DNA of 34,574 bases from an uncultured Alphaproteobacteria bacterium (GTDB lineage Bacteria; Pseudomonadota; Alphaproteobacteria; Rhodobacterales; Rhodobacteraceae), in the NCBI GenBank assembly GCA_902567635.1, contig CACFNV010000012.1, positions 1-34,574 on the forward strand, read 5' to 3'. Within the stretch, counting starts at the first letter, position 1; every line of letters starts with the position of its first letter. Shown here in pieces: positions 4,217-13,873 of the stretch. The notes beneath the pieces are model-generated. The model saw nothing but the letters and a program-made list of their open reading frames with translations. It was not told where the DNA came from and made no database searches. The translations under genes and the position numbers were made by a program.

Positions 4217-5488
4217 TTGAAAAATATCCGCCTAAGTTATTTTATATATGCATTAAACGCGTTACCCCTCGCTTTAATTGTATTTCCACTTTTTGTTTTT
4301 GTCGGAGAACATTACTCGAGTAGTTTAGGAGTTTCTTTGCTGGGGATAGGCATTATTTTCCTGTGCGTAAGATTACTAGATGGGTTTTTAGATCCTCTTG
4401 TTGGTCTTCTCAGTGATAAATTTAACTTTTCGATGGGCCGTAGAAAATTTTGGTTAGTAATTTCTTTACCTATCACCACTTTATCTGTTTGGGGTTTATT
4501 CGCAGCTGATGTGTCAGGTCAATTTTCTATTCAATATTTCTCCGTAAATATAGTGTTATTGACAATTGGACTTTCTCTTTTTGGTCCTCCTTATTATTCC
4601 TTAGGTGCCGAGTTAAGCAAAGAATATTTGGAAAGATCAAAAATAGCTTTTCTTAGAGAGGGCTTTTTCTTATTAGGAACCATTTCATCTGCGTTGATCT
4701 ACGCTCTATCGGATGGATCTACTGAAGCTTTAAAGAATATCGCAATAGCAGTTATTATCTTGCACCCCATTTCAATTTTTCTCTCTCTTTTTTTTGTTAA
4801 GGAGAGTTCTGAGAAAAATAATATTGAAGGTTATATTGGTTTTATAAATATTTTTGAAACCATAATAACAGAAAGAAGAGTGCAAAAGTTTTTGTTGAGC
4901 CAGTTTTTTAACTCAGCAGCAAATGGTATTCCTGGTGCTTTATTCGCTTTTTTTGTAATTCATCGATTGGGAAGAGAGGATCTAGTTGGTCCTCTAATGC
5001 TAGTTTATTTAATTTCAGGAGTAATTGGTGTGCCAATTTGGATTTTTCTAGGAAGATTTATTCTCAAAACGAGGCTTTGGTGTTTTTCAATATGTTTTTC
5101 AATTTTGATTTTCTTTCTAGTTTTTTTTGTGGGTAATAATGACGTTTTTCTGTTTATCGTAATTTGTATTTTAACGGGTTTAAGCGTTAGTGCTGATATG
5201 GCATTACCAACATCTATTCAGGCAGATCTTTTAGACGAAGATTTAAAAAAAACTGGAAGTAATAGATCTGGTGCCTTTTTCTCAATATTGTCAGTGATTA
5301 ATAAAACATCAGCTGCGGTATCCGGCGCCTTCGTATTATTATTCTTGTATAGGGTCGATTTTGATCCAATGGGAAATAATAAAGAGGATACTCTTTTCTA
5401 CCTAACGTGCCTTTATGCCTTAGCACCTATCATTCTTAAAATCTTGCCATTATTTACAATGTGGTCCTTTAAAGAAGAAAAGAATTAA
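4217..5488 (+). CDS. MFS transporter, glycoside-pentoside-hexuronide:cation symporter type
   Basis: A 423-residue integral inner-membrane transporter with about twelve hydrophobic segments. The DPLVGLLSDKF...GRRKFW block between the second and third helices is the hallmark of the MelB-like MFS_2/GPH group. The best start is TTG at 4217, only 6 bases after the methyltransferase stop, with MKNIRLSY opening directly into the first helix; no ATG lies near the N-terminus in this frame. Transporters of this type recur at the end of photolyase/Cfa-type clusters in alphaproteobacteria, where they may act on a lipid or lysolipid rather than on sugar; that is inference. It converges with the SDR gene, leaving a 9-base gap with no obvious terminator. 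Confidence 0.88.
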   Translation: MKNIRLSYFIYALNALPLALIVFPLFVFVGEHYSSSLGVSLLGIGIIFLCVRLLDGFLDPLVGLLSDKFNFSMGRRKFWLVISLPITTLSVWGLFAADVSGQFSIQYFSVNIVLLTIGLSLFGPPYYSLGAELSKEYLERSKIAFLREGFFLLGTISSALIYALSDGSTEALKNIAIAVIILHPISIFLSLFFVKESSEKNNIEGYIGFINIFETIITERRVQKFLLSQFFNSAANGIPGALFAFFVIHRLGREDLVGPLMLVYLISGVIGVPIWIFLGRFILKTRLWCFSICFSILIFFLVFFVGNNDVFLFIVICILTGLSVSADMALPTSIQADLLDEDLKKTGSNRSGAFFSILSVINKTSAAVSGAFVLLFLYRVDFDPMGNNKEDTLFYLTCLYALAPIILKILPLFTMWSFKEEKN

Positions 5489-5497
5489 AAAGACTTA

Positions 5498-6355
5498 TTA
5501 TACAATCTTAAAAAACTTCGCCAGTAGCCTGTCTGAAAAAGATTTTGGTAGATATCTTGTAAAAAAGAATTGAACGCCAGAAGGTCCAAAAGAGTACTTT
5601 GCTTTCGGCCTTCCTTTTTTTGAAATATTATAGATTTTCTGGGCAAGAACGCTAACATCTTCGCCACCTTCTGATAATGATTTGACATATTTTGAGAAGT
5701 TAGAAAAAGATTTTTTATAATTTGTTTTTCCAAAAAGTGAAACTCGTTCATCAATATTTGACTTTGCCCAGATTGGTGTTTTAAATGATCTTGGTGCAAC
5801 TATGATCACATCGATTTTATACATCATAAGTTCGCGTCTCAAGCTCTCAGAAAACCCCTCAAGGGCGTGTTTACTTGTGCAATATGAAGACATGAATGGT
5901 TGTCCAATAGTTCCGCCCCCAGAGCTAATATTAATGATCTTACCAGGTCTCTGGTTTTTATTAGCAGTGCCAAGAAGAGGTAGGAATACTTGAACACAAT
6001 TAAAAGTGCCTACTACCATTGTGTCTAAATGTTGAGAGAATTCCTTTCGGTCTATATGTTCTACGGGCCCTAATTTCGCAATGCCAGCATTATTGACCAA
6101 TATATCTAAATTGTTGCCTTTAAGCTTTGACTTAACCTCTGAAAATGCTTTTTCTATTTCAGATCTTTTAGTCACATCAAAAACTAGAGGGAAAAATCTT
6201 TCCCCATATTTAACTCGTAATTTCTTAGAAGCATCCTTATCTCTGATGGATCCAAAAACCAAAAAACCCTCAGATATAAACTTCGTGACTAGTGCTTCGC
6301 CTATTCCAGAGGAACATCCTGTAATTAAAATGGACTTTTTCAACTTTTTTTCCAT
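5498..6355 (-). CDS. SDR family NAD(P)-dependent oxidoreductase
   Basis: A classical short-chain dehydrogenase/reductase of 285 residues. The nucleotide-binding motif TGCSSGIG is at 12-19, NNAG near 89-92, the catalytic serine in the ISSGGG segment (about 145), and the YxxxK pair is Tyr159/Lys163. The tail beyond residue 190 is longer than in minimal SDRs and is basic, which suggests a hydrophobic or membrane-associated substrate. Its start overlaps the stop of the upstream DUF6134 gene by 16 bases, so the two form a small minus-strand operon converging on the photolyase/methyltransferase operon. SDRs are frequent members of the same light-stress lipid clusters. The substrate is unknown. Confidence 0.9.
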   Translation of the reverse strand: MEKKLKKSILITGCSSGIGEALVTKFISEGFLVFGSIRDKDASKKLRVKYGERFFPLVFDVTKRSEIEKAFSEVKSKLKGNNLDILVNNAGIAKLGPVEHIDRKEFSQHLDTMVVGTFNCVQVFLPLLGTANKNQRPGKIINISSGGGTIGQPFMSSYCTSKHALEGFSESLRRELMMYKIDVIIVAPRSFKTPIWAKSNIDERVSLFGKTNYKKSFSNFSKYVKSLSEGGEDVSVLAQKIYNISKKGRPKAKYSFGPSGVQFFFTRYLPKSFSDRLLAKFFKIV

Positions 6356-10369: not shown

Positions 10370-10459
10370 GGAGAGGTGGCCGAGTGGTCGAAGGCGCACG
10401 CCTGGAAAGTGTGTAGGCGGGCAACCGTCTCCAGGGTTCGAATCCCTGTCTCTCCGCCA
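10370..10459 (+). tRNA. tRNA-Ser (anticodon GGA)
   Basis: A 90-base gene including an encoded CCA. The acceptor arms GGAGAGG and TCTCTCC pair (one G-T), with discriminator G and CCA at 10457-10459. The anticodon arm CACGC-CTGGAAA-GTGTG gives anticodon GGA, which reads UCC/UCU serine codons. The long variable arm typical of class II tRNAs (GGCGGGCAACCGTC region) is present, and the T arm contains GGTTCGAATCC. A degenerate copy of its 3' end occurs 3.4 kb downstream, which marks it as a probable integration site. Confidence 0.97.
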
Positions 10460-10460
10460 A
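10440..10460 (+). repeat. Left copy of att-like direct repeat (tRNA-Ser 3' end)
   Basis: The last 21 bases spanning the tRNA-Ser T arm, acceptor strand and CCA are matched at 17 of 21 positions by 13853-13873 in the same orientation. tRNA 3' ends are classic attachment sites for tyrosine integrases. The match was found by eye and no integrase gene is present. Confidence 0.4.
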
Positions 10461-10541: not shown

Positions 10542-10820
10542 TCATAAAGATAAGCATCCCTTTAGACCTGCTGGCAAAACCAACCATGCACCTGAATCGT
10601 ACAATTTGGCCCCAAAACCTTTAGTATCAGATGCAATTGTCAGAGTGATATTTGAATATCCCAAAACTGCAAAACCATCTGGTAATTCTTTGACAAAACC
10701 TTTTGGTGGGAAAAGTACAAGTGCAGAAGGAGCAGCGTCTGAAAGACGCATAACAAGCGCCATAATGGCTATCCACATAATCAAAACGGAGATAACTAAA
10801 CTAAGCCATTTAATAATCAA
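10542..10820 (-). CDS. Small membrane-anchored protein of unknown function
   Basis: A 92-residue protein that I do not recognise. It opens with one strong hydrophobic segment (IIKWLSLVISVLIMWIAIMALVM, about residues 2-24 in total), which would anchor it in the inner membrane. The rest is a soluble tail of about 65 residues rich in Gly, Pro and small residues, probably periplasmic. The start is TTG at 10820, which overlaps the stop of the upstream 350-residue gene by 11 bases; there is no in-frame ATG alternative at that junction. It is the last gene of a four-gene coupled operon, and the overlap with the preceding stop is the main argument that it is real. It may be a partner of the 350-residue protein, which also has a single N-terminal membrane segment. 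No terminator is obvious before the tRNA gene. Confidence 0.6.
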   Translation of the reverse strand: MIIKWLSLVISVLIMWIAIMALVMRLSDAAPSALVLFPPKGFVKELPDGFAVLGYSNITLTIASDTKGFGAKLYDSGAWLVLPAGLKGCLSL

Positions 10821-11862
10821 AGATATGTTCCAATTGCAGTTGATTGATCTCGTTTTGCCTTATCCATTCTGCAAGCATTTTGACCTTAATTTCTATTAGA
10901 TGACGTTGGTCACCGTAACCTTGTCGTGAAACGCTGAATAGACTTTCATTATAAGGTAATTTTGAATTCACTGATAACATGATATCATCATTTCCTGAAA
11001 TTTCGATGAAATTTGCACCTTCTAATGCCATTTCGACGAGTAAGTGAGTCAACTTTCTATAGCGTGGCGTTTCAACTTCAATCCCTGCAGGGTGCTGTGC
11101 TATTACCGTCACGCCTTTAAAACTTTTGAGTATGTCAACAGGAAGTCCCTCAACGATCATCCGCAACGACAAAGCGTCAGGTCCTACGTTTGCGACTGCA
11201 GATTTGATAAGTTTGGAATAAGCTTGCTTAACTCTGAATTCTAAACCCAAAGCGAAGTTTCGTTCTTGATCTCTAAACGCACCTGTATTAGCTTTGGAAA
11301 GCTGTAAAATATTTTCCTCGAAGTCCCATTGATACCAAGGAACTTGCTGTAAAAATTTTGCGTAATCTGCCGATTGTTGAGCTGAAACCTTGTCTAGCCG
11401 ACTATGTTGATCGCCACGTATCCATGTTGATACACGCCCAAGTGTTTCTTCATAGAGGCCTTTGAGTGCAAGTTCTGCTGAAAAGCTGACGCCAATAGAA
11501 TAAATTGTCTGCTTTGTTTCAAAATCAAAACCACCATGCGATGCTGATTTTTTGGACAATGCACAAAGCGAAGACCAAAAACCCGATATACCTTTTAGAT
11601 ATTTATAATCATGTGGATCACCTAATTGAATGACTTTGGCATAGTCATCATAAGCATTTACGATATGCCATTCTGGATAAGTTAAAAATGTACGTGATTC
11701 TGTACGGTGGTACTCTGTGGGTAACATTGAGATGAAATCTGACGTCACTTCATCTTTTAGGCACATCGTTTCAACATATGCAATTGGAGAAAGTAATAGG
11801 GTTATCAGTGCTATAAGTGCAAAAAATATTCTTCTAAGATACCGCAAGATTGCCCGTGTCAT
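10810..11862 (-). CDS. Conserved-looking protein of unknown function with N-terminal membrane anchor
   Basis: A 350-residue protein not assigned to a named family. A basic N-terminus (RAILRYLRRIF) leads into a hydrophobic segment (about residues 12-28), so it is probably anchored with the bulk outside the cytoplasm. The soluble part has motifs that look like a folded, conserved domain: FLTYPEWHIVNAYDDYA near 60-75, GFWSSLCAL near 94-102, and SIGVSFSAELALKGLYEETLGR near 121-142. The aromatic- and acid-rich first block could bind a ligand or metal, but no catalytic motif is clear. The start overlaps the DUF4383-like stop by 4 bases (ATGA) and its stop overlaps the next start by 11. Arginine codons are mainly CGN, unlike the left flank. 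Its place after a secreted FAD oxidase suggests a shared envelope function. Confidence 0.78.
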   Translation of the reverse strand: MTRAILRYLRRIFFALIALITLLLSPIAYVETMCLKDEVTSDFISMLPTEYHRTESRTFLTYPEWHIVNAYDDYAKVIQLGDPHDYKYLKGISGFWSSLCALSKKSASHGGFDFETKQTIYSIGVSFSAELALKGLYEETLGRVSTWIRGDQHSRLDKVSAQQSADYAKFLQQVPWYQWDFEENILQLSKANTGAFRDQERNFALGLEFRVKQAYSKLIKSAVANVGPDALSLRMIVEGLPVDILKSFKGVTVIAQHPAGIEVETPRYRKLTHLLVEMALEGANFIEISGNDDIMLSVNSKLPYNESLFSVSRQGYGDQRHLIEIKVKMLAEWIRQNEINQLQLEHIFDY

Positions 11863-12263
11863 TTATGACCCAAGTATAAACCAGACCATAGTGCAAATCC
11901 ACCAAGTGCAATATGTGGTAAGTTTGCGAGAACACGAAACAGTGTAAAAGATAATCCTTCTGAATCATTTGTGAATATTCCCAAGTCCAGATAACCGTAG
12001 CCCGTGAGAAAGCCAAAAATGCCATCTCCAAGATAAAGTACACCAAAAACAATAAGAAACATTTTCGCGGAACGCTGACTATAGAGGGCTGCTGATAAGG
12101 CCCATAAAGCTGATGCTACATGTAAGCTATCATCGAAAATATCTAATGCAAAAATACCAAAAGCCCGACCTTCAGTATCGGTTAGACCGGGTATGTAGTT
12201 CAATGAAGCAGCAAAAAGCAGAATACAAAAATACCCTAATGATATTTTTTTAAGCAATTTCAT
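11859..12263 (-). CDS. DUF4383-like four-helix membrane protein
   Basis: A 134-residue integral membrane protein with four hydrophobic segments (about 7-25, 46-64, 69-90 and 108-130). The layout and the NLPHIALGGFALWSG segment at the C-terminus resemble the DUF4383 family, and histidines in the second helix (SLHVASALWAL) and last helix (NLPHI) could face each other. A haem- or quinone-binding role is conceivable but not shown. Both ends overlap neighbours by 4 bases (ATGA), with an AAGAGG ribosome site just before its start inside the end of the FAD oxidase gene, so expression is tightly coupled. As a membrane partner encoded next to a Tat-exported flavin oxidase, it may anchor that enzyme or pass on its electrons; that is inference. 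Confidence 0.75.
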   Translation of the reverse strand: MKLLKKISLGYFCILLFAASLNYIPGLTDTEGRAFGIFALDIFDDSLHVASALWALSAALYSQRSAKMFLIVFGVLYLGDGIFGFLTGYGYLDLGIFTNDSEGLSFTLFRVLANLPHIALGGFALWSGLYLGHK

Positions 12264-13753
12264 AACCTCTTCATGTATTTATCCCAAAGGGCATTTCTAA
12301 AGATTAGTTTCGGATCAATTTCTCGCTTTGATTGAACAAATTCGCTTAGTCTTGGATATGCCCGGCTGATTTGATCAATAGTAGCGTGTAGGCGGTATGG
12401 AAGGTAATATGTTCCTCCGATCCCAATAATGCCTTCTATTAGAGCTTCTGTCATTCGGTTCATATCTGCCTCAGCTCTTTGTGTCATTTCCTGTGAAAAT
12501 GACATCACAGCGGCAATTCTTGGGACGGGTGCATACGCTAAGATACTTTGCTTATCGGTATCAACGTATCGCAAAGTTATGTTTAAGAATTCCTGATATG
12601 ATGCAGGAATAACCGCTCGGCATATATCCAAAAAATCTGAAAACTTGTCCGGTGACACAAAGTATTCATGCAAAATATCAGTCCTAAATGGATTGCGATC
12701 ATCAAGTGTTACTACAGGTTCATTTATAAGCGAATTTCGCGTCACGGCGCCCTGTCCAATTTTTGGCAAAAGACTTGTTTCAGTCCACCAACGGAACCGT
12801 TTCAGGCGTTCGTTTCCAAGCTGGGAACGATAGATATGCCGTGCGATTTTTGACATCTGGCCAGAACCAGAAGCGGCAGGTATTTCCCTTTGATCTTTTG
12901 AAGGCCTATATGTGATCATCAATGCTTCTTCAAAAAAATTCTCGCGATCCACATTTAATCGCCCGTAAGCCATTTTAACGTCAGGATCATTTATAGCTGT
13001 AACAAACCGATCACCATATTCCGTTGCAGGAAATGTATCATATGAGGGTTCCAAGAGTAAATTTTTTGTCATATCGACATCGAGTTCTGTAATCGCACCC
13101 GTTAAACCGTATCCGCCCATTGTTAGATTAAATAACGCCGTATTTTGTGTGGGAGAGCATGTAATAAGTTCGCCATCTGCGAGCACCATTTTTAAGCTGA
13201 GGACCGTTGCACCCATGGGTCCAAGTTTGACAGGCCAACCATGTGCATTTACGCAAAATGTAGCAGCCAAACCAAAATCATTATTCGACTGCATAACCAT
13301 TGGCGAGTAGCCCAGTCTATCTAGTTGTGAAATCACCTGTGACCACCGAATACCTGCATGAGCGCGATAGCTTTGATTTGATCTGTCTGTCTCCAAAAAA
13401 GCGTTATTGTATCTGATTGCGTGCCCTCTTTTCGGAATTGCTTGTCCTCCCATAGAGTGACGAGCAGCACCAATACTCACAGGCCGTCCAGATTCTTTGG
13501 CTTCAGCGATTTCTTTACGAATTGCATTTACGAATTTATCTCCAAGGTCATTGCTTATAGTGATGTGCCTAAAAATAGGAGTTTCTGACAACAAACTGGC
13601 GTCATTTAAGGTATTTTTGTTGCCAGAAGGTACGAATGCGGAAGTACCATCTAATGACGGGTTGGAGCTGGAGACATAACGTGTTCCTGTTATGCCAAGA
13701 GCAGCGCCAGCACCTAAAAGAAATGTTCTTTTTGAAATATTTTTCACACTCAT
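12260..13753 (-). CDS. FAD-linked oxidase of the VAO/aldonolactone oxidase type, probably Tat-exported
   Basis: A 497-residue flavoprotein of the vanillyl-alcohol oxidase superfamily (FAD_binding_4). The N-terminus has a Tat-like signal, SKRTFLLGAGAALGITG, with KR in place of RR, so the enzyme is probably folded in the cytoplasm and exported. The FAD domain begins near residue 58. RPVSIGAARHSMGGQ places His99 where family members such as aldonolactone and alditol oxidases attach FAD covalently. A glycine-rich FAD block (GPMGATVLSLKMVLADGE and NLTMGGYGLTGAI) follows. The C-terminal half matches the sugar-lactone oxidase fold only loosely, so the substrate is unknown; an alcohol, lactone or sterol-like molecule are all possible. 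It is the promoter-proximal gene of the four-gene operon. Confidence 0.85.
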   Translation of the reverse strand: MSVKNISKRTFLLGAGAALGITGTRYVSSSNPSLDGTSAFVPSGNKNTLNDASLLSETPIFRHITISNDLGDKFVNAIRKEIAEAKESGRPVSIGAARHSMGGQAIPKRGHAIRYNNAFLETDRSNQSYRAHAGIRWSQVISQLDRLGYSPMVMQSNNDFGLAATFCVNAHGWPVKLGPMGATVLSLKMVLADGELITCSPTQNTALFNLTMGGYGLTGAITELDVDMTKNLLLEPSYDTFPATEYGDRFVTAINDPDVKMAYGRLNVDRENFFEEALMITYRPSKDQREIPAASGSGQMSKIARHIYRSQLGNERLKRFRWWTETSLLPKIGQGAVTRNSLINEPVVTLDDRNPFRTDILHEYFVSPDKFSDFLDICRAVIPASYQEFLNITLRYVDTDKQSILAYAPVPRIAAVMSFSQEMTQRAEADMNRMTEALIEGIIGIGGTYYLPYRLHATIDQISRAYPRLSEFVQSKREIDPKLIFRNALWDKYMKRL

Positions 13754-13852: not shown

Positions 13853-13873
13853 GAGTCCGTGTCTTTCCGTCAA
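13853..13873 (+). repeat. Right, degenerate copy of the tRNA-Ser 3' end
   Basis: This 21-base block, ending in TCTTTCCGTCAA, matches the tRNA-Ser 3' end at 17 of 21 positions (15 of the last 18). Upstream of it the rest of the tRNA is absent. It is read here as the decayed second attachment site of an insertion; chance similarity is possible. Confidence 0.35.

Follow-up and report, generated by a model that had tools for sequence, protein, structure and literature searches.

The DNA stretch analysed here, which comprises 34,574 nucleotides of contig CACFNV010000012.1 from an uncultured Rhodobacteraceae bacterium and is referred to below in its entirety as the window, raises the question of whether four overlapping genes on its minus strand act as one system, and what such a system would do. 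The genes run from position 13753 down to 10542, each overlapping the next (by 4, 4, and 11 bases in turn), which agrees with a preliminary description of this DNA, and they encode a flavoenzyme and three membrane proteins:

12260 to 13753, minus strand: FAD gene (497 aa, ATG start), encoding a flavoenzyme of the VAO/PCMH superfamily with a Tat-like (twin-arginine translocation) export signal in a KR variant
11859 to 12263, minus strand: gene for a DUF4383-family multi-helix membrane protein (134 aa, ATG start)
10810 to 11862, minus strand: P350 gene (350 aa, ATG start), with an N-terminal membrane helix, a helical domain and an alpha/beta domain
10542 to 10820, minus strand: P92 gene (92 aa, TTG start), with an N-terminal membrane helix

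Based upon their near-perfect co-inheritance, the four genes are a conserved unit. The reading of this unit that we favour, with belief and doubt in about equal parts, is that it specifies one membrane-tethered exported flavin dehydrogenase complex which feeds the respiratory chain.

The gene overlaps recur in the relatives of this operon. The overlap of 4 bases between the FAD and DUF4383 genes is kept in 72 of 78 gene pairs and that of 11 bases between P350 and P92 in 66 of 76, and the DUF4383 and P350 genes overlap by 4 bases in 47 of 78 pairs and by 1 base in 21, all with start codons picked in the relatives by a rule favouring ATG and fit to the profile. Under this rule the P92 gene starts with ATG in 73 of 76 relatives, versus TTG in the window. 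The window belongs to a 1.5-Mb assembly that is 58% complete (G000), and a P350 gene with 97% identity to the window copy is present in another genome, G009. Between these two copies of the operon, the ratio of nonsynonymous to synonymous substitution rates (dN/dS) was 0.22 for the FAD gene, 0.26 for DUF4383, 0.20 for P350, and 0.05 for P92, values that rest on only 35, 18, 24, and 7 differences, respectively.

The linkage of the genes was examined in named loci representing the best 80 of 439 P350 relatives in a species-genome collection, a sample that is biased to close relatives. The FAD, DUF4383, and P350 genes were all present in order in 78 of these loci, with neighbouring matches at most 143 bases apart, and the remaining two loci are truncated by contig starts. 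Exactly four genes in this order were observed in 73 loci, to which L108 adds the same order with P92 split in two. P92 was detected in 76 loci, with no match in L048, L079, L093, and L121; in L079 the P350 gene is in two pieces. The distances among the four genes correlate (r 0.45–0.67, 75 rows), a result obtained with no control for species and not used as evidence.

Rare co-occurrence, which the preliminary description had named as telling against a joint system, was not what broader surveys revealed. Among 149 genomes sampled evenly from the family of the window, Rhodobacteraceae, in which FAD, P350, and DUF4383 were counted, the FAD gene was found in 15, P350 in 16, DUF4383 in 14, and all three in 14, and each pair co-occurred with a Fisher P at or below about 1e-16. 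Of the three genomes that depart from this pattern, two have only decayed remnants, viz. an FAD gene without partners in G816 that is cut at 421 of 495, and a P350 without partners in G786 (79% complete) that is a fragment, an 81-residue stretch. In a sample of the phylum, P350 was present in 19 of 398 genomes, and of the 18 P350 loci besides the window, 17 have an FAD gene and 16 a DUF4383 gene at a distance of about 8 kb or less. Eight of these loci (L035–L041 and L043), which stem from two genera, carry the FAD gene on the opposite strand, and this proximity, kept despite changed orientation, argues for function over simple operon inheritance. In L043 (7839–8366, minus strand) the P350 gene has an internal deletion running into the C-terminus of P92, with the FAD and DUF4383 genes still there. 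P350 was found in only 4 of 385 genomes of the class sample and 2 of 22 congeners, many of the latter being incomplete, which marks the operon as an accessory trait. A search of plasmid proteins recovered P350 from four Ruegeria and Tritonibacter records, each with the four genes in identical order; none of 26 pattern matches in viral contigs was a relative, and phage records searched with P350 gave no match. A weak P350 match in G426 was rejected, as it reads by eye as a glutamyl-tRNA reductase. In L044 (2–2497, minus strand), from another class and an assembly with 8% contamination, one open reading frame (ORF) joins the FAD domain to a methyltransferase-like domain and is directly followed by a P350-type gene cut by the contig end.

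The FAD (flavin adenine dinucleotide) protein passes Pfam FAD_binding_4 with 56.4 bits against a gathering score of 26.4 (E 3.5e-15). Its structural model (pLDDT 86, pTM 0.86) shows a two-domain VAO fold (Foldseek E 3.5e-24), for which VIA gave Z 36.3 with DprE1 (root-mean-square deviation 2.9, 400 aligned residues, 17% identity), 33.6 with galactonolactone dehydrogenase (GalDH), 32.3 with alditol oxidase, and 30.5 with cytokinin dehydrogenase. As judged from the model, the protein is thus a member of the VAO/PCMH superfamily with a DprE1/galactonolactone dehydrogenase/alditol oxidase-type fold; it falls below the curated cut-offs reported for DprE1 and ALO. The HSMGGQ and YLPY stretches may resemble cytokinin dehydrogenase, and Tyr-Arg may resemble vanillyl-alcohol oxidase. 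The Tat-like start noted earlier is borne out in the relatives, 74 of 78 of which have RR within the first 35 residues of the FAD protein, and less well in the window copy, which has KR.

Three residues of the FAD protein deserve attention. His99, already put forward in the preliminary description as the site of a covalent flavin, occupies the flavin-linking position and is kept in 78 of the 78 close rows that have a residue there (79 rows, one gap) and in 11 of 13 diverse proteins. In covalent enzymes the linking His is at the position matching His99 (PMC11099136), and FAD is predicted to be held covalently on this residue. Gln155, present in 78 of 78 close rows and in all 13 diverse proteins, aligns with the gatekeeper residue 113 of GalDH, as counted in the alignment to chain 8qnc, which is the A113G variant. 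Tyr453 was found in 79 of 79 close rows and 13 of 13 diverse proteins and replaces the catalytic Lys418 of DprE1 in an alignment that is a weak C-terminal match (21gq_A, E 0.035), ungapped around the site. According to PMC6128881, Lys418 contacts inhibitors in the active site of DprE1. The enzyme thus joins an oxidase-type covalent His with a gatekeeper unlike that of oxidases and with a different active-site residue.

Of the three partners, the DUF4383 protein passes Pfam PF14325 (32.9 bits against a gathering score of 27, E 8.4e-8), and all 34 members that were scanned match this family at E up to 0.1. It had been described as a four-helix DUF4383-like protein; the family is upheld, and four hydrophobic segments were counted in 50 of 79 members and five in 22 by a loose threshold. 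Asp41, Asp44, Asp45, His48, Asp80, Asp93, Asn114, and His117 are invariant in 34 close sequences, and ten diverse DUF4383 proteins all keep His48, His117, Asp45, Asp80, Asp93, and Asn114. By the positive-inside rule, these conserved Asp, His, and Asn residues would lie near the periplasmic ends of the helices.

P350 and P92 have one N-terminal hydrophobic helix each, in agreement with their earlier designation as membrane-anchored. No family of known function, which would have pointed away from a common role, was found for either: P350 gave no match at E 1 or below in Pfam or NCBIfam (best PDB sequence match E 0.27), and P92 had no Pfam match above the cut-off and no usable NCBIfam match. P350 has a positive N-terminus, a single membrane helix (residues 12–30) and about 320 residues beyond it, which should lie outside, in the periplasm. 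Its model, based upon 43 sequences, is confident (pLDDT 90.6, pTM 0.87) and shows a helical part ending at residue 226 and an alpha/beta domain that begins at residue 232. It had no Foldseek match at E up to 0.001 in the PDB and viral structure libraries, and its best VIA Z was 6.8; middling VIA rows (helical bundles, small alpha/beta domains, and others) were not used. P350 may hence represent a new fold, of which a weak search is no proof. Cys34 and Cys100 are both present in 80 of 81 P350 rows, 66 of which have no further Cys, and they likely form a disulfide. P92 has a conserved C-terminal LPAGLxGC motif. In a set of 18 diverse P350 rows, a P92 match accompanies all 14 that have both Cys residues and none of the 4 that do not, a pattern covering one or two lineages; L048, L093, and L121 lack P92, yet keep both Cys residues as invariant columns. 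A link between Cys34/Cys100 and P92 is thus only a hint from the sequences.

Sequences and models establish the fold class, the conserved residues, the linkage, and the co-inheritance; from these we infer the following working scheme of complex, electron route, and substrate class. The FAD protein would be exported via its Tat-type signal, with FAD covalently bound on His99, and would oxidise in the periplasm a small hydroxylated, possibly sugar- or lactol-like, substrate. Electrons from the reduced flavin would pass to the DUF4383 protein and on to the respiratory chain, by way of a quinone or a cytochrome. P350 and P92, each held by its N-terminal helix, would be periplasmic partner subunits that dock the enzyme at the membrane. 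A periplasmic oxidation system with a membrane partner, as suggested earlier, remains the best reading, with the enzyme now more likely a dehydrogenase in view of Gln155.

Several observations weigh against this complex. The DUF4383 protein has no nameable cofactor motif, and its conserved pair of His residues does not prove that it binds heme or a quinone. In L079 and L043 the P350 gene is broken but the FAD and DUF4383 genes persist, and P92 is absent beside P350 in 4 of the 80 close loci and undetected in L037–L042. The third partnerless case of the family survey, G906 (73% complete), encodes a P350 that is divergent but full-length, and neither an FAD nor a DUF4383 gene was seen in the 12 kb read; on the Legionella lytica plasmid of L145 no P350 match was found within 7 kb of the FAD gene. 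Two distant relatives are without His at position 99, L044 having Tyr and L145 having Phe. The hints to the substrate from neighbouring genes are weak evidence, each group of them being from a single genus, and one such locus, L042, has no FAD or DUF4383 match within 8 kb, yet retains sugar-acid genes, which speaks against a tight link. Finally, His99 by analogy argues for an oxidase, and the gatekeeper rule that argues otherwise was measured on Ala and Gly, with Gln not included.

The last two points bring in the best-surviving alternative, which we consider unlikely, viz. that the FAD protein is a true periplasmic oxidase producing H2O2, with the role of its three membrane partners limited to anchoring it or to dealing with the peroxide or product. 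The conserved His99 is in its favour, as in the aldonolactone enzymes a covalent His goes with oxidase activity according to PMC11099136, and alditol oxidase is among the close folds. In the same paper (PMC11099136), however, position 113 is Gly in the oxidases and Ala in the dehydrogenases, and A113G raises oxygen reactivity 70- to 300-fold. By this comparison the bulky Gln155 should block oxygen at least as well as Ala, and the strict co-loss of a multi-helix protein is hardly explained by simple anchors. Because the gatekeeper Gln155 is weighed above the covalent His99, a dehydrogenase appears more likely than an oxidase, with evidence both ways.

Next in order, and likewise improbable, is the proposal that neither P350 nor the DUF4383 protein is a redox subunit and that both instead serve in export, flavinylation, or substrate uptake. 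Strict linkage is equally compatible with dedicated maturation factors, and P350 is without a match to any cofactor-binding family. However, covalent histidyl-FAD in the VAO/PCMH superfamily generally forms without a helper, and the DUF4383 protein has conserved charged residues in or next to the membrane, on what is predicted to be its periplasmic side.

The genes flanking the operon bear upon its substrate. In the flanks of 96 sequences (the window and 95 loci), the largest families beyond the operon and its antisense readings occurred in at most 22. One recurrent family is LON-like by eye, the families were not individually identified, and their recurrence is taken as local synteny of related genera. 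In L035, L036, and L043, from one genus, an Amidohydro_2 protein and an alpha/beta hydrolase are found near the operon set, in the first of these as follows:

4816 to 5727 and 9565 to 10545 of L035: hydrolase-type neighbours (Amidohydro_2 protein, alpha/beta hydrolase)

The nearest NCBIfam family of the L035 Amidohydro_2 protein is 4-sulfomuconolactone hydrolase (186.8 against a cut-off of 500); this protein has a Tat-like start in L036, and the alpha/beta hydrolase has an N-terminal membrane helix by eye. Such hydrolases would suit an oxidation step with subsequent opening of a lactone. In the surroundings of L037, L041, and L042 there are a GMC oxidoreductase, a sugar-acid-dehydratase-like enolase, and a threonate-dehydrogenase-like gene, although not each was checked per locus. 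At L003 579–3791, on the megaplasmid of Ruegeria sp. TM1040, the operon has a divergently oriented neighbour annotated as a reductive dehalogenase domain protein.

These flanks also bear upon a third and still less probable alternative, in which the FAD protein is a DprE1-like envelope enzyme that oxidises a lipid-linked sugar for cell-envelope synthesis, with P350 and DUF4383 presenting the lipid substrate. DprE1 gave the top structural Z, and the best NCBIfam match, NF053785, is likewise to DprE1. Nevertheless, that match scores only 63.5 against a cut-off of 500 bits, Lys418 gives way to Tyr453, flanking families are shared by at most 22 of the 96 sequences (epimerases were not searched for among them), and the patchy spread among congeners is ill-suited to an envelope housekeeping step.

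The operon also has a distinctive setting, which had been missed in the preliminary description, since it stands as an islet at a tRNA-Ser hotspot:

10370 to 10459, plus strand: tRNA-Ser(GGA), the integration site beside the operon 3' end
10443 to 10460, plus strand: 18-nt repeat at the tRNA-Ser 3' end, the proximal islet end
13856 to 13873, plus strand: imperfect repeat of the tRNA-Ser 3' end (15 of 18 positions identical), the distal islet end, just upstream of the FAD start

The tRNA ends 82 bases from the operon 3' end. The distal repeat has a chance expectation of 0.007 same-strand matches per random window, and in G009 copies of the tRNA end with 1 and 2 mismatches (distal 16 of 18) stand at the two ends of the operon segment. 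In the lineage of the window the operon is thus a 3.4-kb islet bracketed by tRNA-Ser 3'-end copies. No recombinase is present between the repeats, where the non-overlapping ORFs of at least 70 aa are the four operon genes. In G009 a further 1.07-kb segment with a 190-residue ORF (L046 9403–10492), bounded by tRNA-end repeats, is located between the tRNA-Ser and the operon, an arrangement of stacked small cassettes.

In 15 congeners (L168–L182) an alanyl-tRNA-editing gene adjoins the tRNA-Ser and the downstream content differs widely. As identified by Pfam, four of them have a phage-integrase gene, one of these short, 124 bases past the tRNA-Ser, and in a fifth an ORF carrying an integrase SAM-like domain lies 112 bases past it; in three others the 18-nt tRNA end recurs without mismatch 1.3–3.1 kb downstream. 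These integrase-type ORFs and repeats identify the tRNA-Ser(GGA) site as an integration hotspot, at which the operon was probably acquired. Ten further loci among the 80 have a tRNA at most 3 kb from the operon, with tandem tRNA copies in L119, but no tRNA-end copy was found beyond the operon in these loci save a discounted 4-mismatch match in L101, so that the islet arrangement is established only in the window and in G009. That the four genes have no joint function and travel together as neutral cargo, as their place in this islet might suggest, is very improbable, given overlaps kept across many genera, low dN/dS for all four genes, the decay of two of the three partnerless copies, and linkage in 17 of 18 surveyed loci in two gene orientations.

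A bolder and more doubtful reading can be put forward tentatively, in which DUF4383, P350, and P92 would constitute a new membrane electron-transfer and docking module for exported covalent flavoproteins, P350 would have a new fold, the flavoenzyme would belong to a subclass with Tyr453 in its active site in place of the DprE1-type Lys, and the whole respiratory module would be movable as a 3.4-kb recombinase-free tRNA cassette. That the genes are inherited almost entirely together or not at all suggests a single, so far undescribed complex on the outer side of the cell membrane. This co-inheritance lends good support to the earlier suspicion that the system has not been described, and no published account of it was found: literature searches (in which the SPOA locus tags used were guesses) returned nothing on the operon, and no paper was found pairing DUF4383 with "FAD-binding oxidoreductase". 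The enzyme superfamily is already known, and it is the four-gene operon for which no description was found in the literature. The range of compounds that a bacterium can oxidise outside the cytoplasm is set by its exported flavin dehydrogenases, and the unannotated P350 family, together with a DUF family, here gains a firm partner and a testable role. The operon set occurs in the culturable Ruegeria pomeroyi DSS-3, where it spans SPO_RS20280 to SPO_RS22675, and in Tritonibacter mobilis, and the islet shows one route by which such a module can enter a small genome.

With respect to known systems, the islet is likened to the tycheposon-type tRNA-inserted islands of streamlined marine bacteria by its bracketing with tRNA 3'-end copies alone, and it differs from them in having no recombinase between the repeats. 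The DUF4383 proteins of the operon match a family, PF14325, to which no function is assigned. Alditol (xylitol) oxidases and cytokinin dehydrogenases share the fold of the FAD protein but are only 15–17% identical to it, and they are not known to have membrane-protein partners. In sequence the FAD domain matches the GalDH/gulonolactone oxidase family best (profile E 4.8e-21), and the fold is similar; however, the Pfam ALO C-terminal domain reaches only 12.5 against 23.1 bits in the FAD protein (the relative L035 passes with 24.1 bits), and GalDH has Leu in place of His99 and Ala or Gly in place of Gln155. The catalytic pair Arg388/Lys456 of this family lies outside the stretches covered by the profile alignment. 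DprE1 has the FAD_binding_4 domain in common with the FAD protein and is closest to it in structure, but the FAD protein is set apart by its Tat-like signal and its three membrane-protein neighbours.

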